From positions 1 to 45,877 of the IMG/VR virus record IMGVR_UViG_3300042906_001203: a DNA stretch of 45,877 nt; one strand, written 5' to 3'. The stretch is from a virus. The notes below the pieces were generated by a model. The model was not told the origin of the DNA. It was given only the letters and a program-made list of their open reading frames with translations, and ran no database searches. Of this stretch, positions 32,301 to 45,505 are shown in pieces (the first letter of the stretch is position 1; each line of letters starts with the position of its first letter). Both the position numbers and the translations under genes were made by a program.

Positions 32301-33659
32301 GGATTTATAACTGGAGATCCAGTAAGAGTTACAGGAAATACTCCTCTTGGAATTGACACAAGTGCATTCTATTATACGGGTTCAATAACCCAAAATGGAT
32401 TTACCCTACATGAAACTCAGAGTGATGCAACTGCTTCTGCTAGTGGTGTTTCATTCAACGCTGTTGGAATTGCAGATACTGGATCCGGAACAATAACATT
32501 TACAAAACAAAATGTTAGATATCAGTATACGGTAAATACATCTTCAACAGATCCTGATAACTGGTCACTCTTAGCAAGTGCGGACATTGATGCTGCTAAC
32601 ATCGTTAGTGGTACAGTTTCTCCATCTAGACTTGGTTCGGGAACTGCAAACTCTGATACATTCTTGAATGGTAATTCATCCTATCAGAAAGTAGTTACAA
32701 GTGTAGGTATTGCATCTACAACTCCTTTTGGAATTACCGCTTCAAGTTCCGACTTTGGCGTTGGATTTGCTACTCATTATGGTCAAGTTAGAATTACTGC
32801 AAATAGAGTTGCTGCTTCTTTAGATCTTTATTCCTCAACTGGTGTTGCTAAATTTAAGACATCCACCTTTGATATTGGATCTGATGGTGCGGTAAGTATT
32901 AAGAACTCTTCAACTGGTGATGTTGATGCCTCAACTCTTGGTACTCAAAACGGTGCATATTATCTAAACTCTGCAAACCACACTGGAACCATTCCGATTG
33001 CTAGAGGTGGTACTGGTCAAACAGGTCTACCTGCTAATGGTGCAATTCTGATTGGTAATGGATCTGCATTCAACCTCACGACAACTCCAATATTCCAAGC
33101 ATCTGTAACCTTTGCTGGAGTATCCAATTCTATCAATATCACTGCTGGTGGTGATATTATTGGTGGATATGGAGCCTGGACTGGCGAAAAGGCAGGTAAG
33201 ATTCAATTCCACTCAAGTAATCTCTACATGCAATTTACCACAGAATTTATTGCAAGAGATTCTGCAGGAAACAATAGAATGACATTGAATTCCAGTGGTA
33301 ATGTAACATTCCAAGGGACTGGTACATTTAACTCTGACATCAGAATCAAAAAGAACATCTTCACAATTGAAAATGCTCTTGAAAAGACTCTGAAGTTACG
33401 AGGTGTTGAATATGATAGAATTGACAATGGTGATCACCAACTTGGTTTAATCGCACAAGAAGTTGAATTAGTTGTTCCAGATTTAGTATATGAACTTGAT
33501 GCACCTTCTGAAGGTTCTATTGATTATGGTAAGGAATCTATGAAGTCGGTTGCATATCAAAATCTAACCGCACTACTCATTGAGGCCATCAAGGAACAAC
33601 AGAAACAAATTGAAGATCTCAAAACTGACATTGAAAATCTCAAAGGAAGACTAAAATAA
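26313..33659 (+). CDS. Giant tail fibre with Mtd-like N-terminus and S74 intramolecular chaperone
   Basis: A 2448-residue protein. Residues 1-50 (QIRRGTTAQHAVFTGA, VTYDTDKKTLIAHDGS) match the small N-terminal domain of major-tropism-determinant-type fibre proteins. Four loose repeats of 56-63 residues follow (from nt 26808, 26979, 27147, 27336). A glycine linker precedes a pectin-lyase-like segment at ~560-665 (SNDGRTKPVQTIKKAA, then ILVESGDYIEDNP). Three or four HTY-ending repeats lie at about nt 28390-29370. Near residue 2230 is the collar-type motif ARGGTGQT. The last ~107 residues are a peptidase S74 chaperone: NSDIRIKKNI with candidate Ser2341, QLGLIAQEVE, and a C-terminal coiled coil. 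Such tails trimerise fibres and cut themselves off, leaving about 2340 residues in the virion. Confidence 0.85.
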   Translation: MTKQVQIRRGTTAQHAVFTGAIAEVTYDTDKKTLIAHDGSTVGGIELARKDFANVRKAEFPETLQVGFNTDPNYQTGLTGNLNVAGISTFAGIVTSGMSSTSSMSSWDVRIGYGNTAFIVNGDQLVTGISTLATTRGTTATFNNFNVTGYGTTTFTLNTYVTEPSGIGNTIVAVASTQGVAVGDFVSIGTNFSNVVITGFGQSVTSTSFNKELTNTSISTSISIGSTIISVASTTGVSIGNSFSISGIATNIPIVGFTTVALPILNVDVTFTNVTAVASIGATIVAVGDTGGVSIGSSLSTTTESVRDGIITNAVIVGLTTATRPAYNSEILATTTTSNVGVGVTIIPISSVSGVSIGNSITVGNFSGVYITNAPIVGVNTNSVLIPVGSASTILITTSASASISTVRTDSPAIVLQSPLGVGLTIGKGILVSNPTFPVTPAFLIGVGNTFAVGLSSGTTVAVSTVTNNSPAITVGYSSVSEYTIPYNESVTIRRILNDQSRININQGSFKNFEVVGIATINGLTFPTEDGLDGQVLITDGQGNIGFATGGGGSGSRVLVKVSQATGSDSNDGRTKPVQTIKKAAQIASFLGYFFNTGATILVESGDYIEDNPIILYDNVNIIADSLRNVVVRPLNAGIDFFKVRNGNYITGLTFTDFIDVNTKIPQHTWNYTISFDEPFNPALVRTGYACTGTIDIINATYDGATGVTTITTAQPHELYPTNTVRLSGLGWTCGYDETGIASIRYNNVVGISTLTLRSAPNRTENGDPYVIGEKLFLYNFPFACTSEHAGVTTTIFPYDGLDTQGYGAIYPIIGVNTAAKTITIQGGISTIPHTYVGWQKLGISTFVYNNTSGISTATTREAHGYQVNDKITLRDLPFSCLSGAGTTTIFPDGTITSTNVDGYTFTVTGVTTNTFTFNAGISTIAHTYEGYGAVGVSTFIYTNSTGVATCVVSSNHGLTAGDYVTLTGLAFTCPGGSGITTTIFPDGTSPYGYTFRVSNVDNATTFTVNVGVSTIVHSYVSGGTAKKVPVVEKVPTIQKIQFYPDQHQSGVRDFGVISAASTTTFSIRGEKITTIPHYYVAGVGGTAVLSKPQIFKSPYIQNCTILSSLGGNGILVDGDKVISPNVPAVQLLAENPPSGAIPEFGKSMVAATFTMISFDGIGWRVINDGYSQVVSCFQIFCRYGSLAQSGGYLSITNSATNFGSIALRATGFSPNAFSFDKGRVAATGTSGGLQTLKVIGVGRTEQDLYVLRFLDNAGVDRTSLFKPIVQESTVNPAVGVNTNSDVISIAGHPFADGDSIVYIGNEQAEPAIVIDGLVNGNTYYVQYIDSGSFKLFEDDSFRRPTDLRSAPTGINTFQKNNQEFIVDEIIDSHAQYQRLTLASAGSTAIFNSGQEITQTVTGGTATGYALTYHSGTRELVVSVEEVGGTRRFFATSGGNIVDHGPSPIAIGVTAVVGVTTFRTIEFKVDSTSVGNVIQGIGNLPVTYRCNLHRPSIVNSSSHTWEFSGSGTDYNALPQNNGKADPATEQVSELGGRVYASGTNELGDFKIGDQITAFNRTGNIIFNNKVSIGELDSIRLSLSGGVAVEEFSTDTNLGEGELGGPLNKRVSTQLAVRSFMSNRLGTFIDKTVSQNAVPNAVVQLNSSGQINADLIPPKVVNYTKTNVSTGRTVLVNQIPAINIANGDTVVEPELSYVLIQDVFGQYLILDTPTASYNFNNGDTVTSALAAAAIGVVTTPPTGIGIGTTISPYVGYGNTGLVKGVLKQVTIQNGGSGYSAAGLYTCFLQSTTGIGTSALAEVTVGASGTVTSVSLKTGGRYYASGNVLTAIDSQVGGRSGGAQFTVTATAVETRLYLKLTNQQKFAGSVSLPDYIADGNAVGISTTLNLDVSYNIDPTTIETGGAVDFPNDRVVLGIGHTFQDGDPIKYVTNGGTNITGLIENTTYYAKRVGVSSVELHSTYALVSRQDLSGSGIGTHSFIRCGVSSIKDTIVFKNHGFITGDPVRVTGNTPLGIDTSAFYYTGSITQNGFTLHETQSDATASASGVSFNAVGIADTGSGTITFTKQNVRYQYTVNTSSTDPDNWSLLASADIDAANIVSGTVSPSRLGSGTANSDTFLNGNSSYQKVVTSVGIASTTPFGITASSSDFGVGFATHYGQVRITANRVAASLDLYSSTGVAKFKTSTFDIGSDGAVSIKNSSTGDVDASTLGTQNGAYYLNSANHTGTIPIARGGTGQTGLPANGAILIGNGSAFNLTTTPIFQASVTFAGVSNSINITAGGDIIGGYGAWTGEKAGKIQFHSSNLYMQFTTEFIARDSAGNNRMTLNSSGNVTFQGTGTFNSDIRIKKNIFTIENALEKTLKLRGVEYDRIDNGDHQLGLIAQEVELVVPDLVYELDAPSEGSIDYGKESMKSVAYQNLTALLIEAIKEQQKQIEDLKTDIENLKGRLK
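26808..27510 (+). repeat. Four imperfect 56-63 residue repeats in the tail fibre
   Basis: Units start at nt 26808, 26979, 27147 and 27336, each with [GS]-[IV]-G-x-T-I-[IV]-x-[VI] and then GV-[AS]-[VI]-G-[ND]. They are conserved at protein level, with only weak DNA identity. Confidence 0.65.
28390..29370 (+). repeat. HTY-ending tandem repeats in the tail fibre
   Basis: Units of about 85 residues each carry a GD or N-D-x-[IV]-T-L turn, an [FW]-[ST]-C strand, TTTIFP-DG and a closing GISTI-[AP]-H-[TS]-Y. The closings lie near nt 28800, 29085 and 29350. Confidence 0.65.
33330..33659 (+). other. Peptidase S74 autoproteolytic chaperone domain
   Basis: Encodes the C-terminal ~110 residues of the fibre: N-S-D-I-R-I-K-K-N-I, the GLIAQEVE strand and a terminal coiled coil with KEQQKQIEDLK. 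In characterised S74 domains a Ser-Lys pair in this opening motif performs cleavage just before the serine. Both residues are present. Confidence 0.8.
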
Positions 33660-34258: not shown

Positions 34259-34261
34259 TTC

Positions 34262-34819
34262 ATGCCAGTAACGATAGGTCCAAATAGCATAACATTTAAT
34301 AATGGATCTGTTCAATCAGTTCCTTCTGGATTTATTAAGTATAATAGTTGTTCTGCAACAACAACAGACCAATCTATTCAATCTGGTAACTGGGATTTTA
34401 TTAATGGAACTGAATTGAATATGGGAGTTCCAACTAAATCATCAAATTGGTATAGAGTTTCTTTTTATTCCTGTTCTGATGACTGGGGTGGTGCAAACGG
34501 TGGAGTTGGCATGGCTTTATGGAGATGGACGCCATCAACAGGTTGGAACAGAATTCTTGACCAGGGTTGGCACGCTCACTATGATAATAACTGTGGGGAT
34601 TTTTACACCAGCACACATGGAATATGGTATGTTCCAGTTCTAAATGCATCTGAACAACATGCATTTAGATTATATTGCAGAAGACATCCAGATGTTGCTA
34701 TGAGAATTAATTGTTCCATTGGTGCTGATCTCAGAAGAAATGGATGGAATAATAATATGTTTGAAATTTATGAAATAGATGGTGATTTAATTAACACAGG
34801 TAATCTTAGTAGATTTTGA
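34262..34819 (+). CDS. Small adhesin-like protein, set A copy 2
   Basis: A 185-residue paralogue of the genes on both sides. The tag is MPVTIGPNSITFNNGSVQS, which includes the I-x-F-x-x-G-S-x-Q pattern common just before fibre-tip domains. The signature residues are kept: ELNMGVPTKSSNWY, WRWTPSTGWNRILDQG, HAHY, GDFY, HAFRLY, RINCSIGADLRRNGW, SRF. It starts 3 nt after the preceding stop. Its first 11 residues are almost identical to those of the set B gene at 39314, although the rest of the two proteins is unrelated. Confidence 0.65.
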   Translation: MPVTIGPNSITFNNGSVQSVPSGFIKYNSCSATTTDQSIQSGNWDFINGTELNMGVPTKSSNWYRVSFYSCSDDWGGANGGVGMALWRWTPSTGWNRILDQGWHAHYDNNCGDFYTSTHGIWYVPVLNASEQHAFRLYCRRHPDVAMRINCSIGADLRRNGWNNNMFEIYEIDGDLINTGNLSRF

Positions 34820-34829
34820 GGAAAAATTT

Positions 34830-35393
34830 ATGGCAATAACTATAACTGGAAATGGAATACAATATCCAAGTGGACCTTCGCAAAATTATGTTCCTGGAAT
34901 TGTAAAAGTAGCTTTTACTTCATCTAGTGGAGTAAATCATAATAGTGGAACTGGTTTGGGTGGAGGTTGGCAACTTCCTGCGAACCTTGAAATTAATATG
35001 GGAGTTCCAGAAAAAGCAAGTAATTGGTATAAAGTTACTTGGTGGACAATTGCAGATGATCAAGGCGGTGGAGCTCAAGGAACCGGCGCTTCATTATATC
35101 GTTGGACGCCATCAACTGGATGGAACCGAATTCTAGATCAAGGTCACCATGCAACATTGGAAAATGATGTAGGAGATTTGTATTGGGGTGTAATTTGTCA
35201 TTATTGGGCTCCCGCAATTAACAATACCGAGGCACATGCTTTCAGGATTTACCATTCAAATTGGAATGGTCCAACAAGAATTAATTGTTCTATCGATACC
35301 GATTTAAGAAGAAATGGTTGGAATAATAACCAATTAGAAATTTGGGAGATGGATACAGCTTCCATAAATCCAAATAATTTAAGTAGGTATTAA
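34830..35393 (+). CDS. Small adhesin-like protein, set A copy 3
   Basis: A 187-residue third paralogue. The tag is MAITITGNGIQYPSG; the signature is EINMGVPEKASNWY, YRWTPSTGWNRILDQGHHA, GDLYW, HAFRIY, RINCSIDTDLRRNGW, SRY. It has a good GAGG ribosome binding site and starts 10 nt after the previous stop. Copies 2 and 3 are closer to each other than to copy 1 in the RINC region. Three different copies in one virion could give a heterotrimer or a choice of receptors; this is inference. Confidence 0.65.
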   Translation: MAITITGNGIQYPSGPSQNYVPGIVKVAFTSSSGVNHNSGTGLGGGWQLPANLEINMGVPEKASNWYKVTWWTIADDQGGGAQGTGASLYRWTPSTGWNRILDQGHHATLENDVGDLYWGVICHYWAPAINNTEAHAFRIYHSNWNGPTRINCSIDTDLRRNGWNNNQLEIWEMDTASINPNNLSRY

Positions 35394-35879: not shown

Positions 35880-36491
35880 ATGAATTGTTTTTTTGATTTA
35901 TTTTCGTTATCTTTTTATTATGAAAATAATAAAAGTTTATCCGAAGAACTTTTACCCATTTCAAAAAAAATATTGGGAGATAATTCCCTATTAACAAATG
36001 AATGGGGATATAAGAATACATATTCTCTAGATGAGGGACTATCAAAATTACCCGAGTTAAAGTTTTTTGTTGATATTATTTTAGACAGAAGTGCAATTTT
36101 ATATAAGAATTCTGGATATAAAATGAAAGATTCTTACAAGTTATGGACTTCAATTTTTACGAGTTCTATGAAGTCCGGCGATAAACACGATGCACACTCA
36201 CATCCTGGTGCGATATATTCGGGATTAATTTACTTACAAGTACCAAAAGGATCTTCACCACTACAATTTCAGGGAACAAAAGATTCTATTTTTAATACGG
36301 TATTTGAGAAAGAAATAAAAAAAGAAAATATTTTTAATTATGAGGAAGATGGTTCGATAACAATATATCCACATGAAGGAATGTTTTTAATGTGGGACTC
36401 TTGGGCCTTACATAGAGTTCCACAAAATAATATAGATACAGATGAAGAAAGAATTACTATGGTTTTCAATGTAGGTGTAGAAAAAAAATGA
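35880..36491 (+). CDS. 2OG-Fe(II) oxygenase, TIGR02466/PF13759-like (copy 1)
   Basis: A 203-residue protein. The double-stranded beta-helix core shows HDAHSHPGAIYSGLIYLQ with candidate iron ligands His106 and His108, a second ligand His178 in SWALHRV, and Arg191 in ERITMVFNVG for 2-oxoglutarate binding. The H-x-H-P-G-A and SGxxYL pattern is that of the putative 2OG-Fe(II) oxygenases common in marine phages and bacteria. The substrate is unknown. It starts 2 nt after the previous stop and its stop overlaps the next ATG (ATGA), so it is coupled to the second oxygenase. Confidence 0.75.
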   Translation: MNCFFDLFSLSFYYENNKSLSEELLPISKKILGDNSLLTNEWGYKNTYSLDEGLSKLPELKFFVDIILDRSAILYKNSGYKMKDSYKLWTSIFTSSMKSGDKHDAHSHPGAIYSGLIYLQVPKGSSPLQFQGTKDSIFNTVFEKEIKKENIFNYEEDGSITIYPHEGMFLMWDSWALHRVPQNNIDTDEERITMVFNVGVEKK

Positions 36492-37186
36492 AATTTAATA
36501 AAGATTATATATTTGAAGTGGAAGGACTTATTCCTACTTGGATGCAAGAATATTGGGATGAAATAATTTTAAATTGTGATAGGTGGAAATATGGATTGAG
36601 AGGATCACCAAATGATATTGAAAAATTTTTTGCAGTATGGATAAGTAGACCAGGAGAAAAACCATTTATAAATGACATTTCAAATATTGGTAGAACATTT
36701 AATGAAATGTGGCGTAGGGAGGGATTAAACTCTATTATTAAAGATGCTGTTATAGAACAAGTGCATAGAGTTCATGTAAATGGTACTATCCCATCAGATT
36801 CTTTTTTATCAGTTCATCAAGATTGGGAACCTCCAAATTTTTGGACCATGATATATTATGTTGGTGGTTATGATGGAGACACTGTTTTTTATGATGAACC
36901 AGATATTAATAAAGGGGAGATTGATTTTATAGAAAAATACAGAATACCCTTCAAACAGGGGAAAATTGTGTTTTTCCCCTCGTGCATTTGGCATAGAGCT
37001 GAATTGCCTTCTACAGGTCTTAGATCAACTTTATCGATTAATTATATTTTAAATGATTGTGATATAAACTTAAAAATTCAGGAAGAACGAGGAATTAAAA
37101 GAAATAATAAATTACCAGATGTTCCTGAGGAACTTAGAAAATTTGAAAATATTACTTTTGGTTTTGGTTCACTAAATCGACATTAA
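36488..37186 (+). CDS. 2OG-Fe(II) oxygenase with H-x-D motif (copy 2)
   Basis: A 232-residue protein of a different subfamily from the preceding one. It carries a textbook facial triad: His110 and Asp112 in SVHQDWEPP, His169 in SCIWHRAELP, plus Arg179 in LRSTLSINY for 2-oxoglutarate. The segment YYVGGYDGDTVFYDEP resembles small prolyl-hydroxylase-like enzymes. Translation is coupled to copy 1 through an ATGA overlap. Its last 35 nt overlap the 3' end of the minus-strand oxygenase. The substrate could be a protein side chain or a small metabolite. Confidence 0.75.
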   Translation: MKFNKDYIFEVEGLIPTWMQEYWDEIILNCDRWKYGLRGSPNDIEKFFAVWISRPGEKPFINDISNIGRTFNEMWRREGLNSIIKDAVIEQVHRVHVNGTIPSDSFLSVHQDWEPPNFWTMIYYVGGYDGDTVFYDEPDINKGEIDFIEKYRIPFKQGKIVFFPSCIWHRAELPSTGLRSTLSINYILNDCDINLKIQEERGIKRNNKLPDVPEELRKFENITFGFGSLNRH

Positions 37187-37820
37187 AAGCAACACTAACT
37201 CGGTCTTCATCTGTAGTATTTTTAACAGTACTATGAGCTAACCACGCTGGAAATAATATTATATCTCCATCTCTCGGTATAATTTCTATTGATTGTGGAC
37301 TTCTGGGGCCTTCTGGGAAGTAACAATTTTCCAACATAATATTGGGGTTTCTAAATTGTATTCCTCCCTGATCTGCATTTACTCTGAAATAGTAAACTCC
37401 AGATATTGTATATTGGGGATGAACATGGTAATCATGGAAAACACCCTTCTCTGCGATGTTGATCCATGAATTTTTTATTTCGAATGTCGCATCATTTATA
37501 GAATTTAATATTGGAGAAGAATTTAATGCTGACCATTGTGTAAGTTTAATGTAATGATCTACAGCTTCATATATTCGTTTTTCCAAGTTTCTTAAATTAT
37601 ACTTTTCTATTAATTGGTCAGAAACAAAATATCCACTTTCTGGTCTATTTCTTTTTCTTTCTCCAGCATCTTTGTAGATATATGATACACATTCTAAATC
37701 ATCTTCTTCTAAAATTTTGTTTAGACAATCACGAATTTCTATTTGCGTGATATCGTAATTATCAACTGTAGCTGGTTGTTTATAAACTGGAGTGGGAAAT
37801 AAATTAATCAAACCATACAT
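37152..37820 (-). CDS. 2OG-Fe(II) oxygenase, TIGR02466-like (copy 3, minus strand)
   Basis: A 222-residue protein on the opposite strand to the structural genes. The opening MYGLINLFPTPVY is the typical start of the TIGR02466 family. The core has SWINIAEKGVFHDYHVHP with candidate ligands His132 and His134, then SGVYYF, ILFPAWLAHSTV with His196, and DRVSVAFNV with Arg207. The family is common in marine T4-like phages; the substrate is unknown. Upstream it has an ACTATATAAT box of its own, shared with the other minus-strand oxygenase. It converges with copy 2 with a 35-bp overlap. Confidence 0.8.
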   Translation of the reverse strand: MYGLINLFPTPVYKQPATVDNYDITQIEIRDCLNKILEEDDLECVSYIYKDAGERKRNRPESGYFVSDQLIEKYNLRNLEKRIYEAVDHYIKLTQWSALNSSPILNSINDATFEIKNSWINIAEKGVFHDYHVHPQYTISGVYYFRVNADQGGIQFRNPNIMLENCYFPEGPRSPQSIEIIPRDGDIILFPAWLAHSTVKNTTDEDRVSVAFNVDLVNQNQK

Positions 37821-37832
37821 TGAAGTTCACCC

Positions 37833-37840
37833 TATAAATA
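37833..37840 (+). promoter_or_regulatory. Late promoter box TATAAATA
   Basis: An exact late box in the 60-nt divergent gap, pointing to the plus-strand gene at 37881 (40 nt to its ATG). Confidence 0.6.
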
Positions 37841-37856
37841 ATTTTAATTACACTTT

Positions 37857-37866
37857 ATTATATAGT
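37857..37866 (-). promoter_or_regulatory. Sigma-70-like -10 box ACTATATAAT for minus-strand oxygenase
   Basis: On the minus strand this reads ACTATATAAT and includes a perfect TATAAT, 37-46 nt before the start at 37820. I see no clear -35. The same ten bases occur before the other minus-strand oxygenase at 41510-41519. Confidence 0.5.
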
Positions 37867-37880
37867 TTTAAATTTGAATC

Positions 37881-38666
37881 ATGAGAACCATTTACTATGC
37901 TCCAAAAATTGAAAACTCTGGACCAAAGGGTTTTGAACACCCACTTCTAGAAGATGAAATTTTTATTCCAATAAAGCCATATCTATCATATTATAAAGAA
38001 CATCACGAAAAACATGTTTATTGGGAATGCCCTGCATGGAAAAAATACTATAAAAATTCTTTTGTAATATTTTCTCAATCAAATATAGAGGTTAAGTTTT
38101 CAAAAGATGATGGAGTTGTAGATCCCGAAACTTATGTCCATATGAATATTGATGAGGGATTTGCCATAAATGATATGAATTTATTTGGTAGAAGTATGTT
38201 GGGAGAAGATCCGACTACTACAGGGGTTATACATAACCCATTAAGGCCTCCGTATCATGGATTAATTATTGGACAACTTCATCAACATTATTTTTTCTGG
38301 ACAGAACCACAAGTTAAAACTTTATGGATTGAAATATTGCCGACAACTATTCCTATTCCTGGAGCCGAATTAGTTAGTGCAGAATATCCTGTTGGTAGGT
38401 GGATGAGGCCAACAATTTGCGCTTACAAATTTAATGAACCAACTATAATAAAAAGAGGAGATCCTATCGGCATTCTTAGATTTAGGAATTCTAAAAAATA
38501 TGATGAAAATTTCAAACTAGAAAGAAAACAAATTCCTCAAAATGTAATGAGAAAAGCATATAACCATAGCATATTAAAGAAATTTTTACCTAAAAAATCT
38601 TGGGATTTTATTAAAGATGAACCAAAAGAATCTAAATGTCCTTTTAGTAAACTTCGTTTGTGGTAA
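37881..38666 (+). CDS. Phage protein of unknown function, DUF6065-like (copy A)
   Basis: A 261-residue protein with no enzyme motif that I can identify. It has a beta-rich middle with FFWTEPQVKTLWIEILP, then WMRPTICAYKF and a closing TIIKRGDPIGILRFRN. This is the same strand plan as the 275-residue protein at 41551, where the closing reads VVLKDTPLMLIIPFRR. A SKCPFSKLRLW segment ends the protein; the other copy carries SKCPFAP near its N-terminus. The resemblance to DUF6065 is from memory and tentative. Both copies lie beside oxygenases, so a role linked to them is plausible. The start is 40 nt after a late promoter box. Confidence 0.5.
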   Translation: MRTIYYAPKIENSGPKGFEHPLLEDEIFIPIKPYLSYYKEHHEKHVYWECPAWKKYYKNSFVIFSQSNIEVKFSKDDGVVDPETYVHMNIDEGFAINDMNLFGRSMLGEDPTTTGVIHNPLRPPYHGLIIGQLHQHYFFWTEPQVKTLWIEILPTTIPIPGAELVSAEYPVGRWMRPTICAYKFNEPTIIKRGDPIGILRFRNSKKYDENFKLERKQIPQNVMRKAYNHSILKKFLPKKSWDFIKDEPKESKCPFSKLRLW

Positions 38667-38683
38667 AGTTTATAACCAATTGT

Positions 38684-38691
38684 AATAAATA
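38684..38691 (+). promoter_or_regulatory. Late promoter box, variant AATAAATA
   Basis: One mismatch to TATAAATA, 24 nt before the ATG at 38716. Confidence 0.4.
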
Positions 38692-38715
38692 ATATTACAA
38701 TAATAAATCGAATAT

Positions 38716-39309
38716 ATGGCTATTATATTGGGCGAAAGCTCAAATAGAATAAGATGTGATGGAAACATGACTATGAATGTTTCCACTAGCACTAATGTGG
38801 AAACATTCTTAAATAGTTTTGCTAGTGGAAATCCAAATCAACCTGCGTTCCAAGCTGCTGGAGCTGCCGATTCTTGGAGATATCTTGTTGCAAATACTTG
38901 GAACGAATTGGGAGTTACAGTTAATTTTAACTGGACTTGGTATCAAAGAGGTGCTAGTGGTGGTGGGATGAACTCTAACGGTAGATATTTTGCACCCAAA
39001 AGTGGATATTATTATTTTCATGCTGACATGTATCAACTTCAAGATACTAATAATACCGCAAACTATACTCATTTACTATTTGGGATTAATGGTAATGTGA
39101 GTTGGAATAATGGAAGAGTTCCCTATACAATATATGGTCATGGAAATTCTCAAGGAGTTGGAGGAGCTTACGCACATGGACCCAATATTTCCGCTATTAT
39201 GTTTTTAAGTGAAGGTCAATATTGTAGTCCATATATGTATAAGGGTAACTCTGGTAATACTAGAATTTATACAGGACATAGTTTCTTTTGTGGACACCTA
39301 ATTAGTTAG
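38716..39309 (+). CDS. C1q-like small adhesin, set B copy 1
   Basis: A 197-residue protein and first of three tandem paralogues. After a short tag (MAIILGESSNRIRC) the body fits a C1q/TNF-like jelly roll: PAFQAAG, WYQRGASGGGMNSNGRYFAPKSGYYYFHADMY, SAIMFLSEGQYCSPYM and a closing IYTGHSFFCGHLIS, which corresponds to the usual SxFSGxLL end of C1q domains. Such domains trimerise and often form receptor-binding tips. The GASGGGM stretch is glycine-rich. It is likely a fibre-tip protein or free adhesin of the virion. Confidence 0.65.
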   Translation: MAIILGESSNRIRCDGNMTMNVSTSTNVETFLNSFASGNPNQPAFQAAGAADSWRYLVANTWNELGVTVNFNWTWYQRGASGGGMNSNGRYFAPKSGYYYFHADMYQLQDTNNTANYTHLLFGINGNVSWNNGRVPYTIYGHGNSQGVGGAYAHGPNISAIMFLSEGQYCSPYMYKGNSGNTRIYTGHSFFCGHLIS

Positions 39310-39313
39310 AATC

Positions 39314-39883
39314 ATGCCTATTACAATCGGACCAAATAGTATTACAAGTAATGTAGATTTGGACATTAGACCAAATAATATCAGAAGTCTTTATTATTTT
39401 ACTACAGGACAAAGAATTTCTGATAGGACTCCTGCGTTTACGGCTATTGGAACCGTTGACTGGAGATATAGGGACCAATTTGGTCAAGGAGCTAACCCAG
39501 AAATTAACGGAACTATAGGTTGGACTTGGAATCAACAAGGAGCCGGATCATTTGGAATGAACTCTAATGGCAGATATTTTGCTCCTGTAACTGGAAGATA
39601 TTATTTTTATTTTTCCGCATATGCATATAATGATAATAATAGTACATCTAGTTATATGCATTTACATGTGACTAAAAATTCTGGTTATGGTTGGAATAAT
39701 GGAAGGCAACCCCACAATATATACATGCACGCAACCCCATATAATCATGAAGATGGAATCGTAACATCATGTAATATGCAATTAAATCAGGGAGAATATT
39801 GTGTTATAAGGCCTTATTGGAATGCAAATAGTTCTAGAATTTATGGAGCACATACCATGTTTGCTGGAGCACTCATTGGTTAA
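39314..39883 (+). CDS. C1q-like small adhesin, set B copy 2
   Basis: A 189-residue paralogue starting 4 nt after the preceding stop. The tag is MPITIGPNSITSNVDLDI, nearly the same as in the set A gene at 34262. The body has PAFTAIGTVDWRY, QQGAGSFGMNSNGRYFAPVTGRYYFYFSAY, LNQGEYCVIRPYW and a closing IYGAHTMFAGALIG. The pattern GRYFAPVTG-x-YYF is the conserved C1q-type strand pair. The three set B copies agree in strand order but differ in loops, as expected for receptor-binding variants. Confidence 0.65.
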   Translation: MPITIGPNSITSNVDLDIRPNNIRSLYYFTTGQRISDRTPAFTAIGTVDWRYRDQFGQGANPEINGTIGWTWNQQGAGSFGMNSNGRYFAPVTGRYYFYFSAYAYNDNNSTSSYMHLHVTKNSGYGWNNGRQPHNIYMHATPYNHEDGIVTSCNMQLNQGEYCVIRPYWNANSSRIYGAHTMFAGALIG

Positions 39884-39889
39884 TAAATA
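39882..39889 (+). promoter_or_regulatory. Late promoter box, variant AATAAATA
   Basis: One mismatch to TATAAATA. It overlaps the preceding stop and ends 25 nt before the ATG at 39915; a GGAG site follows. Confidence 0.4.
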
Positions 39890-39914
39890 TAACTAATAGG
39901 AGTTTTTTTCTGCC

Positions 39915-40502
39915 ATGGCTATCATAATTGGTTCCAATGAAATAAGATCCGATACTACAGAAATCCAATTTTTTGCAAATAATAATTATGTGCAATCAGT
40001 AAATCAGACTACTGGTAGAAGAACGGAATATCCTTCTTTTCATGCATCCTGCAATTTAGATGAATGGAGATATGCTGGTCAAATTGGATGTGGCCAGTGG
40101 AGAGAAATGGGTAACTGGGGATTTTCTACTGGAGGCCGATGGACAGTAAACCAAAGAGGTGCTGGTAGTTTTGGATTTGATACAACAAATGGTAGATATT
40201 TTGTTCCTGTAACTGGATACTATCAATTCGGAATGACAATGTATTACCTGGATGATGGTAATACATATCACTATACTCATTCTAATTTTGGTGTTAATGG
40301 GGGATTAAATTATAACAATGGTCGTCACGGACATTCAATCTTTAATCACCCCTCACATGGCAATTATGCTAAAGGTATAAATACAGAAAATATGATGTCC
40401 TTAACTCAAGGTCAATATGTATCTCCGCAACCATATACGAACTGCGGAAATCAAAGAATTTATATGGGACACTTCCATTTTTATGGTCAACTTTGCCCAT
40501 AA
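39915..40502 (+). CDS. C1q-like small adhesin, set B copy 3
   Basis: A 195-residue paralogue. The tag is MAIIIGSNEIRSDTTEI. The body has PSFHASCNLDEWRYAGQIG, NQRGAGSFGFDTTNGRYFVPVTGYYQFGMTMY, SLTQGQYVSPQPY and a closing IYMGHFHFYGQLCP. It keeps the C1q-like ending with Tyr-Gly in place of Ser-Gly. A clear GGAG site precedes the ATG, and a late box lies before that. It is likely the third member of a tip set with the two preceding genes. Confidence 0.65.
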   Translation: MAIIIGSNEIRSDTTEIQFFANNNYVQSVNQTTGRRTEYPSFHASCNLDEWRYAGQIGCGQWREMGNWGFSTGGRWTVNQRGAGSFGFDTTNGRYFVPVTGYYQFGMTMYYLDDGNTYHYTHSNFGVNGGLNYNNGRHGHSIFNHPSHGNYAKGINTENMMSLTQGQYVSPQPYTNCGNQRIYMGHFHFYGQLCP

Positions 40503-40505
40503 GCT

Positions 40506-40513
40506 TATAAATA
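40506..40513 (+). promoter_or_regulatory. Late promoter box TATAAATA
   Basis: An exact late box 25 nt before the ATG at 40539. Confidence 0.65.
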
Positions 40514-40538
40514 TTATCAAAACTAATAATTAAAGACA

Positions 40539-40880
40539 ATGGTAACTTTAAGTGTAGAACTAACTGATTTAGAATATGCTGCTTTAGCTCATATTGCAGT
40601 AGATCCCCATGATTGGTTCAGTGATATGGTAAAACTTCGTTGCAGAAATACCATTCATGAAGTAGCGGATTTGAAAATTAAAGAAATGATTGCAGATCCC
40701 TCTGTAGCTTCTATTCCTGCAGATAAAGAAGTAATTTTTGAAACTTTAGTAAATGATGGAGTTATCAAACCTGCCAGTCAAATGATGGAAGAGGAAGTTG
40801 AGAGAACTAAGATGTTGGTAAGTACTACTCAAGATTTAATTCCAGAAACTCCTGCACTTGATGGAACTAGACCTGTTTGA
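40539..40880 (+). CDS. Small tail-region protein, phage hypothetical
   Basis: A 113-residue protein. It opens with a short beta segment (MVTLSVELTDLEYAALAHIA) followed by DPHDWFSDMVKLRCRNTIHEVADL, then long helices with many acidic residues. Short proteins with this start, with a DEQY-type turn and a DWxxxxVxxRxR helix, are common next to phage fibre genes, but I know no proven function. It has its own exact late promoter. Its last 52 nt overlap the 3' end of the minus-strand oxygenase at 40829. Confidence 0.6.
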   Translation: MVTLSVELTDLEYAALAHIAVDPHDWFSDMVKLRCRNTIHEVADLKIKEMIADPSVASIPADKEVIFETLVNDGVIKPASQMMEEEVERTKMLVSTTQDLIPETPALDGTRPV

Positions 40881-41479
40881 TAATCAAAAAGTAAATTAAA
40901 GGATATAGTTATTCTATCTTTTATACACTTATTTACGGAGTGTATTAACTCGGAAGGAAAAAATATTATATTTCCTTCTTCAATATGTGATGTTGAGAAA
41001 ACACTTCCAACATCACATATTTTATACTTGTATCCAGAGTGGTTATTAAAAAACATAGTAGTATTTGGTTCATCCAATTCCAATAAATAAATTCCAGACA
41101 AACTAGCTCCACTGTGAGCATGGAGTTCTTGGGAATATCCAGGTTTATATACATTAAACCAAATTTCTGGTATGATTATATTATCCGGTTTATTCGGGAA
41201 TAAATTTTTATTTTCAAATAATTCATTCAAAGGATTTTCTATGATGGATGTAATTATTTTTTCGGTAAAAATTTTTTTTATATTTTCTTGGTGAAAATAA
41301 CTAGTAATAACTTCACAGTTCCATTTATTTTCTGTTATTTTTCTTTCATTCAATGGAGAATTATAATACTTAAAGTTTTTACTTTCTTCTAAAATTTTAT
41401 TTTTCAATTCTTTTTTTATTTCATGATGATCTTTTACTTCAGTCCAAAAAATAAAAGGAGAGGGCCAAGTTACTAACAT
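40829..41479 (-). CDS. 2OG-Fe(II) oxygenase, TIGR02466-like (copy 4, minus strand)
   Basis: A 216-residue protein. The opening MLVTWPSPFIFW is the family-type N-terminus. The core shows IWFNVYKPGYSQELHAHSGASLSGIYLLE with candidate ligands His120 and His122, then IIFFPSELIHSV with His180, and DRITISFNL with Arg189. It is more diverged from copy 3 than from typical marine-phage members, so it is not a fresh duplicate. A minus-strand ACTATATAAT box lies 31-40 nt upstream. The C-terminal ~17 residues are encoded opposite the end of the preceding plus-strand gene. Confidence 0.8.
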   Translation of the reverse strand: MLVTWPSPFIFWTEVKDHHEIKKELKNKILEESKNFKYYNSPLNERKITENKWNCEVITSYFHQENIKKIFTEKIITSIIENPLNELFENKNLFPNKPDNIIIPEIWFNVYKPGYSQELHAHSGASLSGIYLLELDEPNTTMFFNNHSGYKYKICDVGSVFSTSHIEEGNIIFFPSELIHSVNKCIKDRITISFNLLFDYQTGLVPSSAGVSGIKS

Positions 41480-41509
41480 AAATTAATAAGGGTATATATT
41501 AACAATTAA

Positions 41510-41519
41510 ATTATATAGT
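41510..41519 (-). promoter_or_regulatory. Sigma-70-like -10 box ACTATATAAT for minus-strand oxygenase
   Basis: A perfect TATAAT on the minus strand within ACTATATAAT, 31-40 nt before the start at 41479. It is identical over ten bases to the box at 37857-37866, and no clear -35 is seen. Confidence 0.5.
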
Positions 41520-41550
41520 GACAATCTAAAATTATCATTTCGGTGAATTT

Positions 41551-42378
41551 ATGTTCAAAAAGAAAAATATTATTCAATTTTGTGCTTCAGATCAAGCAAA
41601 AGGCATTCCCAACATTTATCCGGCATACAAACAATTTCCAGAGTGGTTTTTAAAAAGTAAAAAACCTTCTTCAGAAAAATCTAAATGCCCTTTTGCTCCA
41701 ATAATGAATTTCAATCCTCTTGGGAGTAGAAGTTCATTAGCTGCAGGAGAAAATCCATACACTCTGATGAAAGACAGTACTGTACATCATTGTCCAGGAA
41801 TTGTTGACTATCTAAAAACGGGATACATATTACCGGCTTGGAGTGATATGTGTTTTAGGATGATTAATGGAGAAATGAAATTTGAATCGGCTTTAGAAAC
41901 GCCGGAGTTAAATTATAATATTCATAGATTTAACCAATTTCAAGGAATGACTTATGATCAAAAACCAAAGATGGGAATGTTTCATAAGGTATCTAGTCCT
42001 TGGTGGATTAAAACAAGTCCAGGTGTATCTGTTTTAATTACTGATCCATATTGGAATAGAAATAAAAATTTTACATCAGTATCAGCAGTTGTTCATCCTG
42101 ATATTACCCCAATTCATTTGAAGTGGTTTTTTGAATTTAATTATTCAATTCAAGAATCTCCGGAAATTTATGATCAGAAAAAACAGGTAGTATTGAAGGA
42201 TACTCCTCTCATGTTAATTATTCCTTTTAGGAGGACATCTTTTGATCATGAAATTAATTTTTTATCTAAAGAAAAATTATCTGAGATACATAGAGATAAT
42301 TACTACGGATCAATTTCTTGGTTTACTGATACCATTTATAATAAGTTCAGAAAGCGTTTAAACAATTTTTATAAGTAA
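41551..42378 (+). CDS. Phage protein of unknown function, DUF6065-like (copy B)
   Basis: A 275-residue protein. It has IIQFCASDQ near the start, a SKCPFAP segment, HHCPGIVDYLKTGYILPAWSDMCFRM, then FHKVSSPWWIKTSPGVSVLITDPYWNR, LKWFFEFNY and VVLKDTPLMLIIPFRR. This order (substrate-like pocket strands, a P-W-x-I-x-T-x-P-G turn, a final IPF strand) is familiar from a phage family annotated DUF6065 or similar; that assignment is from memory. It is placed 12 nt before the halogenase ATG, so the two are probably one operon. It may be a partner or a substrate carrier of the halogenase, but that is only inference. Confidence 0.5.
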   Translation: MFKKKNIIQFCASDQAKGIPNIYPAYKQFPEWFLKSKKPSSEKSKCPFAPIMNFNPLGSRSSLAAGENPYTLMKDSTVHHCPGIVDYLKTGYILPAWSDMCFRMINGEMKFESALETPELNYNIHRFNQFQGMTYDQKPKMGMFHKVSSPWWIKTSPGVSVLITDPYWNRNKNFTSVSAVVHPDITPIHLKWFFEFNYSIQESPEIYDQKKQVVLKDTPLMLIIPFRRTSFDHEINFLSKEKLSEIHRDNYYGSISWFTDTIYNKFRKRLNNFYK

Positions 42379-42390
42379 TTGGAGATTATT

Positions 42391-43947
42391 ATGAGAATTA
42401 ATAAAATTGTCATTGTTGGTGGTGGTAGTTCTGGTTGGATGACAGCTGCTGCTTTATGTAAGAATTTTCCAGATATGGATGTAACTCTTATTGAATCCAA
42501 AGATATTAAGACAATGGGAGTTGGTGAATCGACATTAGGTCAATTTAACAATTACTTGCAGTTAATTGGATTAACTGATGATAGTAGTTGGATGAAGGAA
42601 TGTGATGCAACTTATAAAGTTTCCATTAAATTTACAGATTTTAGAGAAACTGATACTGTTTTCCAATATCCATTTGGAATTCATGGCGCAGACCGTATGC
42701 AAAGAGGTTTGGATGCATGGCCAATTTTAAGACAGATTGATCCAGAATATCATACATTGGATAAATTTGCTAAATTTTATAATCCCATTTCATACTTATC
42801 TGAAAAAAATAAATTAACAAAAAATGAAGATGGTGGTATTCCAAACTTTTTCTTTGAAAAGGATACTGCATATCATCTAGATGCAACAAAATTTGGAATT
42901 TATTTGAAAAATAACATTTGTTTACCTTCTGGTATGACTCATATTGTTGAAGATGTTGTTGATGTTTGTCAAAAAGAAGATGGAGAAGTTGATTATATAC
43001 TTACGGAATCTGGACAAAAATTAACTGCTGATCTTTTCATTGATTGTACCGGATTTAAATCTTTATTACTAGAAGAAAAGATGGGATCAAAATTCATTTC
43101 TTTTGGTGATACATTATTAAATGATCGAGCTCTTGCTACTAAAATTCCATATTCAGATCCAAATGAAGAAATGGAAAATACCACCAATTGTACAGCAATT
43201 GAAAATGGGTGGGTTTGGAATATTCCACTGTGGAGTAGAATTGGTTCTGGATATGTTTATTCTAGTAAGTTTGTTTCTAGAGATCAAGCTGAAATTGAGT
43301 TTCGCAACCATCTGAAAAAAACAAAGAAAAATATTCCAGATGACTTAGAAATGAAAGAAATTTTTATTCGTCATGGTAAAAGAGAGAAAGCCTGGGTAAA
43401 AAATGTTTTAGGAATAGGACTTTCATATGGTTTTATTGAACCTTTGGAATCTACTGGATTATTAACCACACATGATAATATTTTCAGATTGGTTAAAACT
43501 TTAACTAGAAGGAATAGATTTGTTTCGGGTATTGATAAATCTATTTTTAATACATATCTTGATTATACTATGGATGGCGTAAGATCATTTATTGAAACTC
43601 ATTATGGACTATCAATGAGAGGAGATACTGATTATTGGAAACATGTAACTTCCATTGAATATCATAATGAGTATGATGTCCAACAACTTGAAATTAATAT
43701 TTTTAGACAATCAAACTTTAATGGATTGATTGGTGGTATGCCTTATATTGCTGCTGGTATGGGATACTTACCAACATATAAAGTGGGCAGAGGTTTGCCG
43801 GGATCAGGAGAACTTCCTTATGAAGAAATTGAACAATTTAAAAATATCAATAGAGAGTTTAAAATGTTTCATGATACTATGGTTTCTTATGTTAATGGAT
43901 TACCTACACATTATCAATTCTTAAAAGAAACAATTTATCAAGATTGA
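42391..43947 (+). CDS. Flavin-dependent halogenase (tryptophan halogenase family)
   Basis: A 518-residue protein from the ATG at 42391, which has a GGAG site 6 nt before it; a longer TTG start at 42379 would hide that site. Motifs are intact: the FAD-binding GGGSSGW at 10-16, the TMGVGEST loop at 41-48, Lys76 in ECDATYKVSIKF (equivalent to the catalytic lysine 79 of PrnA), WVWNIP at 274-279 (the WxWxIP signature), and FIEPLESTG at 348-356 with the conserved glutamates. Family enzymes use FADH2 from a reductase, oxygen and halide to form a bound haloamine at the lysine. A related enzyme from cyanophage Syn10 (VirX1) was described as preferring iodide. No flavin reductase is seen here, so host FADH2 is probably used. 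The substrate is unknown. Confidence 0.9.
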   Translation: MRINKIVIVGGGSSGWMTAAALCKNFPDMDVTLIESKDIKTMGVGESTLGQFNNYLQLIGLTDDSSWMKECDATYKVSIKFTDFRETDTVFQYPFGIHGADRMQRGLDAWPILRQIDPEYHTLDKFAKFYNPISYLSEKNKLTKNEDGGIPNFFFEKDTAYHLDATKFGIYLKNNICLPSGMTHIVEDVVDVCQKEDGEVDYILTESGQKLTADLFIDCTGFKSLLLEEKMGSKFISFGDTLLNDRALATKIPYSDPNEEMENTTNCTAIENGWVWNIPLWSRIGSGYVYSSKFVSRDQAEIEFRNHLKKTKKNIPDDLEMKEIFIRHGKREKAWVKNVLGIGLSYGFIEPLESTGLLTTHDNIFRLVKTLTRRNRFVSGIDKSIFNTYLDYTMDGVRSFIETHYGLSMRGDTDYWKHVTSIEYHNEYDVQQLEINIFRQSNFNGLIGGMPYIAAGMGYLPTYKVGRGLPGSGELPYEEIEQFKNINREFKMFHDTMVSYVNGLPTHYQFLKETIYQD

Positions 43948-43948
43948 T

Positions 43949-44638
43949 ATGAAAAATGATTACTTAATCGTAAAATTTTTGGATGAGGAAGATCTAAAAA
44001 ATGTTCAAAAATTTTTAGATCTTTCTGTTGATACTGATTGGGATACGGGATTAAAAACATACTATGGAGATCCAACTACAAAAAACAATCAAGAACTGGT
44101 AAATTATTACATAAAAGAAAAAATTTCAAAGCCGATTTATGAATCAATTGACACCAATAAAAAATTTGTAAATTTTTGCTTTCCTAAAAAAATAGAAGAT
44201 ACTTTAGTTACCAGAACTAAAGAAGGTGGGTATTATAATACTCATGTGGATATAGGATTTAATGGTCATTTTAGTGTAACTGTGTTTCTTTCGGATCCAT
44301 CCACTTACGAAGGTGGAGAACTTTGTTTTTTCATGAATGATGAAGAAGTTAAGATAAAATTAGAACCTGGATTTGGTATTGTTTATCCAACTGGTATACC
44401 ACATAGAGTCAACAAAGTAACCAAGGGTCACAGAGATGTTTGTGTATTTTGGGTAAAATCTCTTATTAAAGATCCATTCATAAGAGAAATATGTTATGAG
44501 TTGAATGAATTAAATCTTGATGAGGAAACTTCAAATACTGTAAAAACAGATGAAGATTTTAAAAAGGTTATAAGTCAAGCAGGATTCAAAGTTAATGATA
44601 TATTTCATAGGTTAATACGAAGATACGCGGACATCTAA
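43949..44638 (+). CDS. PKHD-type 2OG-Fe(II) hydroxylase (PiuC/YbiX-like)
   Basis: A 229-residue protein. The core shows GGYYNTHVDIG with His99 and Asp101, TVFLSDPSTYEGGELCF, PTGIPHRVNKVTKGHRDVCVFWVKSLIKDP with His152 and Arg162, then a helical tail with REICYELNEL. These are the family signatures of PKHD hydroxylases, whose bacterial members often lie by iron-uptake genes. The length fits the family (about 220-230). The start is 1 nt after the halogenase stop, so the pair is almost certainly cotranslated. The two oxidative enzymes may act on the same substrate. Confidence 0.85.
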   Translation: MKNDYLIVKFLDEEDLKNVQKFLDLSVDTDWDTGLKTYYGDPTTKNNQELVNYYIKEKISKPIYESIDTNKKFVNFCFPKKIEDTLVTRTKEGGYYNTHVDIGFNGHFSVTVFLSDPSTYEGGELCFFMNDEEVKIKLEPGFGIVYPTGIPHRVNKVTKGHRDVCVFWVKSLIKDPFIREICYELNELNLDEETSNTVKTDEDFKKVISQAGFKVNDIFHRLIRRYADI

Positions 44639-44674: not shown

Positions 44675-45505
44675 ATGGCGCAACCATCTAGTAGAGCGGA
44701 GTTGAAAGATTACTGCCTCAAACAATTAGGAAAGCCCGTTTTAGAAATAAATGTAGATGACGATCAGATCGATAATTTAATTGATGATGCAATTCAATAT
44801 TATCATGAACGCCATTTTGATGGTATTGATCGTGTATTTTTAAAACACAAACTTACCCCTGCAACTAAAACAACATTAGCTCAACCAGGGCCAGTAGGTT
44901 CTGCATCTACTTCAGGTAGCGTCGTTGGAGCTGGATTGACTTCACTTACTTATGTTGAAGGAGTCAATTACTTGCCTCTTCCAGATAGTATTATTGGTGT
45001 AAATAATATTCTTAAGATCAATTCCAGTACAATTTCAGACGGTCTTTTTAATATTAAATATCAGTTATTCTTAAATGATGTTTACTATTATGGTGCATTA
45101 GATCTTCTTAATTATGCAATGGTCAAAAGGTATCTTGAAGATTTGGATTTTCTTTTGAATCCTCATGCACAAATCAGATTCAATAAGAAGAATCATAAAT
45201 TATATCTTGACATTGATTGGTCTCAAGTTGGCGAGAATGAATATGTTATTATTGATTGTTATAGAGTTCTAGATCCATCAGATGCACCAAAACTCTACAA
45301 CGATTGGTGGTTAAAAAAATACCTCACTGCTCTCATCAAAAAACAGTGGGGACAGAACATGATTAAATTCAATGGAGTCTTACTTCCAGGTGGAGTTCAG
45401 TTGAATGGAAGACAGATCTATGATGATGGAGTTGCCGAAGTAGAAAAATTGGAACAACAACTTAAGGATGAATACGAATTACCACCACTTGATCTCATAG
45501 GTTGA
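44675..45505 (+). CDS. 13: Neck protein gp13 (head completion)
   Basis: A 276-residue protein. The opening (RAELKDYCLKQLGKPVLEINVDDDQIDNLIDDAIQYYHERHFDG) is a well-conserved signature of cyanophage-type gp13, and YYYGALDLLNYAMVKRYLEDLDFLLNP and WWLKKYLTALIKKQWGQNM are further conserved blocks. T4 gp13 is 309 residues and joins the portal to the neck after DNA packaging, together with gp14. The next gene is gp14 with the start 1 nt after this stop, keeping the T4 order 13-14. Expression is likely set by the overlapping promoter and hairpin just before it. Confidence 0.92.
   Translation: MAQPSSRAELKDYCLKQLGKPVLEINVDDDQIDNLIDDAIQYYHERHFDGIDRVFLKHKLTPATKTTLAQPGPVGSASTSGSVVGAGLTSLTYVEGVNYLPLPDSIIGVNNILKINSSTISDGLFNIKYQLFLNDVYYYGALDLLNYAMVKRYLEDLDFLLNPHAQIRFNKKNHKLYLDIDWSQVGENEYVIIDCYRVLDPSDAPKLYNDWWLKKYLTALIKKQWGQNMIKFNGVLLPGGVQLNGRQIYDDGVAEVEKLEQQLKDEYELPPLDLIG

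Follow-up and report, generated by a model that had tools for sequence, protein, structure and literature searches.

The stretch of DNA analyzed here (the window, 45,877 nucleotides) derives from a marine virus of bacteria and carries, upstream of the gp13 gene, an island (35880–44638) that, together with its neighboring adhesin genes, we interpret with moderate confidence as a phage adhesin-tailoring module present in duplicate, whose enzymes would halogenate and hydroxylate the tail-tip adhesins. In related phages, the module genes follow a conserved order, in which an adhesin trio leads to a small cap gene and then to a halogenase, a DUF6065 protein, and 2OG-Fe(II) oxygenases (2OG enzymes), and within S-RIM44, a cyanophage species, the enzymes are exchanged together with the adhesins. 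Since adhesin genes travel with the halogenase, the hydroxylases, and DUF6065, the virus probably modifies its own gripping proteins.

The phage is T4-like (Kyanoviridae-type), with the neck genes gp13 and gp14 in T4 order, and a whole-genome DNA search retrieved S-SCSM2R as the closest named record (78%), with a match confined to the neck genes. The region is bounded upstream by a giant fibre-like structural gene (26313..33659, plus strand; a 2448-aa ORF), similarly placed in most relatives whose sequence reaches far enough, and downstream by the head–tail adaptor gene gp13 (44675..45505, plus strand; phrog_211, 1e-46). The interval 35880–44638 encodes the enzymes that the original prediction had proposed, namely five proteins of the 2OG-Fe(II) oxygenase type, a flavin halogenase (here assigned to the VirX1 type), and a pair of related proteins of the DUF6065 type, and a sequence check found all of the island genes open, intact, and correctly positioned; two oxygenase genes (37152 and 40829) are on the minus strand. 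The six small adhesins were also present, but their supposed alternation with the enzymes inside this interval was not upheld: they form two blocks of three, the first of which (33659–35393) precedes the interval, and the layout is thus one of two cassettes rather than of gene-by-gene alternation. The high enzyme density, earlier considered remarkable in itself, was dropped as an argument because islands of isolated cyanophages match or exceed it, that of S-CREM1, of the same kind, having eight annotated 2OG genes plus JmjC. Late-promoter-like sites occur at the adhesin, cap, and gp13 genes of the module, and the late-promoter-like TATAAATA (37833–37840) stands ahead of the first DUF6065 gene, D1 (37881..38666).

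Each copy comprises an adhesin trio (small, presumably receptor-binding tail proteins encoded in tandem), a single small cap gene, which is P8886 in one cassette and U113 in the other, and oxidative enzymes. The trio of cassette A (ADH1; 33659–34258, 34262–34819, and 34830–35393, plus strand; phrog_8195, E 1e-56 to 1e-65) is directly downstream of the fibre gene, and P8886 (35428..35877, plus strand; phrog_8886, 2e-26) lies between it and the enzymes, namely three 2OG oxygenases and one DUF6065 protein. The same combination of ADH1 trio, P8886, and enzymes was found in L092, L093, and L289, the last with ten 2OG-type genes and DUF6065. Cassette B harbors a second trio (38716–39309, 39314–39883, and 39915–40502, plus strand; phrog_15750), followed by U113 (40539..40880, plus strand; a family of its own), a 2OG oxygenase, a DUF6065 protein, the halogenase, and a PKHD oxygenase. 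The AlphaFold model of the 39314–39883 product (pTM 0.69) retrieved EDA-A1 and C1q domains from the PDB with Foldseek (E 8e-7 to 1e-6), which assigns the cassette B adhesins a predicted C1q/TNF jelly-roll fold, and the match to Pfam C1q was below the cut-off (E 0.019). U113 also adjoins C1q adhesins in L204–L258, mostly facing halogenase/2OG genes, and both cap genes probably encode a chaperone or adaptor. As a separate observation, adhesin 2 has a conserved His180, present in 98% of C1q adhesins with the module versus 33% and 14% among non-module C1q adhesins, and the His content is 5.2% versus 2.6%, respectively (6.1% in TF863, another adhesin family with no match among PDB sequences); as relatedness is confounded with module content, this pattern is a lead only.

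The FAD halogenase anticipated from the sequence was recovered at 42379..43947 (plus strand), where the product matches Trp_halogenase (PF04820; 4e-104, 350 bits) and aligns over residues 5–520 with VirX1 (PDB 6QGM; 479 bits, ~47% identity). The alignment displays the FDH motifs GGGSSG (GxGxxG), WVWNIP (WxWxIP), TYK (Lys), and LEST (Glu), and by full-length similarity and motifs this protein is an intact VirX1-type flavin-dependent halogenase. To our knowledge, VirX1 is the only characterized viral halogenase. It corresponds to CPUG_00131 of cyanophage Syn10, a gene that follows tail-fibre genes and immediately precedes a DUF6065 gene in an island carrying this module. VirX1 has been published as a broad-scope small-molecule iodinase with an open active site, which halogenates many small aromatics in vitro and for which the review names no natural substrate (PMC8407142). 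Flavin halogenases working on ribosomal peptides and fused proteins also exist, among them SrpI and MibH, which act on side chains of ribosomal peptides/proteins (PMC10286304, PMC10858898). Their substrates are leader-guided small peptides, whereas those proposed here would be folded trimeric phage adhesins, in which no leader was identified.

Four of the oxygenases had been described as TIGR02466-like or H-x-D proteins. The protein at 37152..37820 (minus strand; PF13759 2e-21, 77 bits) alone passes the curated TIGR02466 cut-off of 62.5 bits (87 bits), and the divergent 2OG-Fe(II) oxygenase-like protein at 36488..37186 (plus strand; phrog_274 3e-19, phrog_81 3e-10) exhibits HQD...H...R, with a PF13640 score (5e-4) below the cut-off, no match to the TIGR02466 profile, and the PF13759 cut-off likewise missed. 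The proteins at 35880..36491 (plus strand; PF13759 7e-18, 65 bits) and 40829..41479 (minus strand, convergent with U113; PF13759 1e-11, 45 bits) are above the PF13759 cut-off, below that of TIGR02466, and carry HxH, the former with a readable H-x-H...H...R. At the putative iron-binding facial triad, all three PF13759 proteins have HxH...H in place of HxD...H, a variant also seen in other phage members. The presumed PKHD hydroxylase at 43949..44638 (plus strand; phrog_61 1e-38) passes PF13640 (2e-9, 39 bits) and narrowly misses the NF003974 equivalog cut-off (PRK05467/YbiX; 3e-40, 138.3 versus 143 bits), and is hence classed as PKHD-like only. Across 18 related phage genomes, 63 oxygenases were counted no more than 8 kb from a full-length halogenase, compared with an expectation of 22.3, and none of 4000 random placements reached this number; 2OG genes are plentiful elsewhere too (7–22 per genome). 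The islands of Syn9 and Sf-FP1 further contain proteins of the JmjC_2 family, which includes protein hydroxylases. Collagen hydroxylation was rejected as a candidate, with (Gly-X-Y)6+ repeats absent from the window and the cyanophage islands. Cyanophage 2OG-Fe(II) oxygenases of these same families (TIGR02466/PF13759, PF13640, and JmjC_2) have long been listed (PMC3037559), with ten in S-CREM1 (PMC9964418) and 24 in S-SCSM1 (PMC9602691); these three papers treat them as host-metabolism genes and leave a linkage to adhesins undescribed, and the 2022 paper states that the roles of viral 2OG genes were never specifically investigated (PMC9602691). Some of the oxygenases could act on host targets instead.

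The two DUF6065-like proteins, D1 (plus strand; phrog_17480, 6e-9) and D2 (41551..42378, plus strand; phrog_7084, 2e-32), proved to be mutually homologous, as predicted (hhalign P 99.7, E 1e-25, with two intermediate sequences common to both input sets). Neither matched Pfam PF19541 directly, and 11 of the 40 aligned homologues of their family did (best 5e-34), which probably places both in DUF6065 through intermediates. The AlphaFold model of D2 (pTM 0.71), built from input without rows from isolate records, retrieved exclusively dUTPase/dCTP deaminase as top PDB matches with Foldseek (best 4xjc, E 4e-4; target TM 0.4–0.6), and the query TM of ~0.3 implies that this predicted dUTPase-like fold, new from this analysis, covers the core only; sequence comparison with the PDB gave no significant match. 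These matches would also suit a nucleotide or DNA hypermodification pathway, in which a dUTPase-fold protein, 2OG enzymes, and the halogenase produce a modified pyrimidine. We hold this to be very improbable: the dUTPase catalytic motifs 1 (AGYD) and 2 (PRSS) are absent from the DUF6065 consensus, the modules contain no thymidylate synthase- or kinase-like genes, and the context is late and structural. For want of those two motifs DUF6065 was not filed as a dUTPase, motif-3/4-like stretches persisting in some members. A search of bacterial genomes with one query sequence confirmed no DUF6065 member, and S-RIM4 carries DUF6065 alone; the linkage of the family to halogenases and adhesins is new from this analysis.

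An enzyme-blind scan with TF863, which is unrelated to the window adhesins, revealed a halogenase (up to six genes away), DUF6065, and then 2OG genes in 25/25 groups (contigs dereplicated, groups at 90% identity, and counts not fully independent owing to shared ancestry). In all 25, DUF6065 was immediately 3' of the last halogenase and P8886 was followed by a halogenase, immediately in 20 and within three genes in five, and 23 groups had exactly three adhesins. An equally enzyme-blind scan with the window C1q adhesins detected a halogenase in 11/12 close and 0/14 distant groups (Fisher 1.6e-6), with the enzymes mostly on the strand opposite to the adhesins, and so the module is not one frozen operon. 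Thus, rather than being randomly placed relative to the adhesins, which had earlier been set as the refuting outcome, the enzymes form a fixed package beside three unrelated adhesin families (TF863, C1q, and ADH1). A recombination hot-spot upstream of gp13 that gathers cargo, making the linkage functionally meaningless, would be in keeping with the variable number and type of enzymes and with their presence at 8/55 gp13-anchored loci; however, cargo would not retain the order of three adhesins, cap, halogenase, and DUF6065 in every TF863 group, and the unit recurs in T4-like phages whose enzymes are on the other strand of a stretch lacking gp13, which renders this explanation improbable. The enzymes are of known kinds; no description of the module or mention of DUF6065 was found in the literature searched, which leaves out most subscription journals.

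Within S-RIM44, the same five records hold the VirX1-type halogenase, TF863, and DUF6065, and in two other isolates the slot contains a different adhesin, a cap, and one 2OG gene beside a 95% identical gp13 flank. S-RIM44 Np_42_0711 carries the module, as do Syn9, Syn10, and S-CREM1, and S-RIM44 Np_05_0604 lacks the VirX1-type halogenase. The proposal of a joint system is supported by the fixed package and its exchange, which also favor virion tips over a host surface or signal molecule as its target, the decoration itself being conjectural. The same exchange speaks against reading the enzymes as products of auxiliary metabolic genes, inserted by chance into a late operon near adhesins, that would synthesize or alter a small molecule such as a halogenated indole, an antibiotic, or a signal, or would turn over 2-oxoglutarate for NtcA control. 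That explanation draws on the in vitro activity of VirX1 on many small aromatics (PMC8407142), on the halogenase being published as the first step of pyrrolnitrin synthesis (PMC9964418, PMC2984593), and on 2OG enzymes being published as NtcA- or DNA repair-related (PMC3037559); we consider it unlikely, given that order and neighbors are constant across the three adhesin families and both strand arrangements and that other pathway genes are absent beside the enzymes. Action on the host surface (O-antigen or an envelope protein), blocking superinfection or aiding release, with adhesin and enzymes matching one receptor, would likewise account for the co-exchange, and the S-SSM7 island with carbamoyltransferases and heptose genes and the L215 type with glycosyltransferases are compatible with it. 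It is nevertheless also rather unlikely, as the PF13759, JmjC_2, and PKHD enzymes look cytoplasmic, with no export signals noticed by reading the sequences, and the late-promoter-like sites fit virion assembly better than surface remodeling.

Modification of the adhesins themselves is favored by the module order in all TF863 groups, the C1q split, the S-RIM44 co-exchange, the oxygenase clustering, JmjC_2 in islands, and the known peptide/protein flavin halogenases, as well as by the slot of C1q adhesins without a halogenase (L215–L219), which holds decorating-type enzymes (glycosyltransferases, a methyltransferase, and radical SAM/SPASM). Against it, gene proximity is not catalysis, distant C1q adhesins manage without the enzymes, VirX1-like halogenases occur without adhesins (L095–L098 and S-H35), DUF6065 can stand alone, and 2OG genes are common elsewhere. 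Under adhesin modification, the halogenase would act late in infection on aromatic residues (Trp, His, or Tyr) of folded or folding adhesins, and the 2OG enzymes would add hydroxyl groups to different side chains, all of this before the adhesins join the fibre or as they do so. DUF6065, as a catalytically degenerate dUTPase-like fold, might serve as a partner or substrate adaptor rather than as a nucleotide hydrolase, and the modified tip would differ in its affinity for the receptor, in its stability, or in how well it withstands changes of the receptor.

In T-even phages, gp37/gp38-type cassettes pair a variable adhesin with an adjacent small assembly gene, and the two are swapped together. 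The module shares the variable adhesin, the neighboring small gene, and their joint exchange, but unlike those cassettes, it has three adhesins per cassette and an oxidative enzyme set. Whether this represents a widespread, undescribed class of tail-tip maturation, in which a halogenase/DUF6065/2OG set inherited together with adhesin trios halogenates and hydroxylates them, across three or more unrelated adhesin families, is in our judgment evenly balanced. If so, the physiological substrate of VirX1 would be found, many cyanophage oxygenase genes would acquire a role, and the slot would be filled in related phages by sets of glycosyltransferases, methyltransferases, and radical-SAM enzymes. 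For about twenty years, the halogenases and 2OG oxygenases of cyanophages have been catalogued as metabolic genes whose job is not known, and the linkage to adhesin trios offers a concrete, testable substrate for them. It also ties VirX1 to virion assembly and gives DUF6065 a predicted fold and a context, and it raises the possibility of non-standard chemistry on receptor-binding proteins, invisible to sequence-based host prediction.

The window, a 45.9-kb viral record of a T4-like phage, carries giant fibre-like genes followed by gp13 and gp14. All the genes named in the original prediction, which had listed five 2OG-Fe(II) oxygenases, a halogenase and two DUF6065-like proteins among adhesins, were found with open reading frames between the fibre-like giants and gp13/gp14. 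Family searches identified three PF13759 oxygenases (35880; 37152 and 40829, both minus strand), a divergent 2OG protein (36488), a PKHD-like oxygenase (43949), a Trp_halogenase (42379) and two proteins that match no Pfam model themselves (37881 and 41551). These genes sort into two parallel cassettes. In cassette A, a tandem adhesin trio (33659-35393, phrog_8195) is followed by a cap gene encoding 149 aa (35428), then by three 2OG genes and a DUF6065 gene (37881). Cassette B starts with a tandem trio of C1q-like adhesins (38716-40502) and a cap gene encoding 113 aa (40539), continues with one 2OG gene and DUF6065 (41551), and closes with the halogenase and the PKHD gene, after which gp13 begins. 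The late-promoter-like motif ATAAATA was located 15-50 nt upstream of the start in 9 of 14 plus-strand cases (p 5e-13), preceding the cap genes, the first DUF6065 gene, two adhesins and gp13, among others. Two minus-strand oxygenase genes, both within the late plus-strand operon, overlap the 3' ends of their plus-strand neighbours by 35 bp (37152-37186) and 52 bp (40829-40880).

The closest PDB entry to the window halogenase is VirX1, the flavin halogenase of cyanophage Syn10 (479 bits), and the GxGxxG, WxWxIP, TYK lysine and LEST features are retained. A 40-residue segment from the N-terminal region placed VirX1 at Syn10 CPUG_00131 (L186:9004-10596), with tail-fibre genes and a homolog of the cassette A cap gene (P8886) upstream, and with DUF6065 immediately downstream, accompanied by a series of 2OG genes. 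The natural substrate of VirX1 is not listed in the reviewed literature (PMC8407142), and this gene neighborhood suggests one. The PF13759 oxygenases (35880-36491, 37152-37820 and 40829-41479), like other phage members of the family, exhibit HxH...H, possibly a three-histidine iron site, whereas most 2OG oxygenases have HxD...H. The PHROG name of phrog_274, "DNA endonuclease V", is misleading, as this family matches 2OG oxygenases (36488-37186 and relatives), and the "ferrochelatase" families phrog_2954/3531 probably do likewise; the Syn9 and Sf-FP1 islands are therefore under-annotated.

The proteins encoded at 37881 and 41551 are mutually homologous and belong to DUF6065 via intermediates. 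An AlphaFold model of the latter (41551-42378; pTM 0.71, pLDDT 74) best matched dUTPases and dCTP deaminases in the PDB (best E 4e-4, probability 1.0), and DUF6065-type phage proteins and dUTPases in a viral library. Two family members weakly matched the Pfam dUTPase model (best 0.014), and stretches resembling motifs 3 and 4 (G-I-I-D-T-D; G-T-P-[LI]-A-Q-I-I-P-F-K-R) are readable in some; the family consensus lacks motifs 1 and 2. DUF6065 therefore looks like a protein of predicted dUTPase fold in which the known active site has been lost; it has an invariant Cys. In a further set of phages (L174-L185), two DUF6065 genes of the 37881 type stand in tandem between 2OG genes, with no adhesins or halogenase nearby.

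Across the genomes of 18 related named phages, 63 oxygenases are situated no more than 8 kb from a full-length halogenase against 22.3 expected, a value not reached in any of 4000 random placements. Of these, 43 belong to VirX1-type halogenases, for which about 11 were expected (table rows summed). Eight named phages carry DUF6065, and in six of them (Sf-FP1, Syn9, S-RIM44, S-CREM1, Sf-FR1 and P-TIM40) it comes immediately after the halogenase. A survey of 55 loci anchored on gp13, each with 3 kb or more of upstream sequence, showed co-occurrence of halogenase and oxygenase (Fisher 3.5e-5), and neither was found downstream of gp13 in any locus. Only 8 of the 55 have either enzyme, and the module is therefore optional.

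Scans were also seeded with adhesins, so that loci were not picked for their enzymes. With TF863, the small tail-fibre adhesin family of S-RIM44, whose sequence is unrelated to either window adhesin, 78 loci were obtained, which fell into 25 groups when clustered at 90% identity (best between-group identities down to 44%). Every one of the 25 groups has a halogenase no more than six genes away, DUF6065 immediately behind the final halogenase, and 2OG genes; 23 have exactly three adhesins. The scan with the window C1q adhesin recovered a halogenase in 11 of the 12 close groups that extend 2 kb or more downstream, versus none of 14 distant groups. In most of these C1q loci the enzymes are encoded on the other strand and face the cap gene, commonly in the order halogenase, 2OG and three DUF6065 genes; some contigs carry gp23, and psbA was absent from all 25 records tested. 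A more distant relative from the cassette A adhesin scan (L289) has the adhesin trio, the P8886 cap gene, a single DUF6065 and ten genes of 2OG type, which are mostly minus-strand. Common ancestry among these contigs, and the restriction of each scan to a single adhesin lineage, limit the weight of all three scans.

The VirX1-type halogenase, TF863 and DUF6065 occur together in five S-RIM44 records (NC_047734 is apparently the RefSeq version of KX349294), and the other S-RIM44 records lack all three, with only a distant halogenase elsewhere. In two isolates, Np_05_0604 and W2_10_0709, three genes occupy the slot before gp13, namely one putative adhesin of another kind, a cap gene and one further gene; in Np_05_0604, the cap is a P8886 homolog (E 4e-6), the further gene a PF13759-type oxygenase (E 5e-28), and the gp13 flank is 95% identical to the other S-RIM44 strain type. 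Adhesin and enzymes were thus swapped jointly, and the small version is still adhesin, cap and oxygenase. Close C1q adhesins without a halogenase were found in L215-L219, whose alternative enzyme set, read from the L215 contig (9083-16455), follows the adhesins with a methyltransferase, a GT2-like protein, two family-7 glycosyltransferases with LamG and a radical SAM/SPASM protein, as an adhesin-decorating enzyme slot would be expected to look. The halogenase/2OG island before gp13 in S-SSM7 (L198, 99.5-116.7 kb) also includes two carbamoyltransferases, genes for heptose synthesis, a nucleotide-sugar epimerase and a cysteine dioxygenase.

The AlphaFold model of one cassette B adhesin (39314-39883; pTM 0.69) matched C1q/TNF domains (best E 8e-7) as well as the knob domain of a phage spike. 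Histidine reaches 5-6% in module adhesins (38716-40502; TF863) versus 0.8% in the giant fibres, and an exploratory residue analysis of the C1q adhesins, confounded by relatedness, singles out histidines and tryptophans.

Each enzyme family of the module is already known in cyanophages, the function given being antibiotic, NtcA-related, DNA repair or unknown (PMC3037559, PMC9964418, PMC9602691). In the literature searched, outside which most subscription journals lay, we found no mention of DUF6065 and no published description of the adhesin, cap, halogenase, DUF6065 and 2OG module, of which an earlier mention is possible. The enzymes are intact and their linkage fixed, exchange with the adhesins is joint and late-promoter-like sites are present; the most likely reading is that these enzymes modify the adhesins while late genes are being expressed. 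The adhesins would serve as substrates, presumably on particular residues, the DUF6065 and cap gene products may act as adaptors, and the modification would alter receptor binding.
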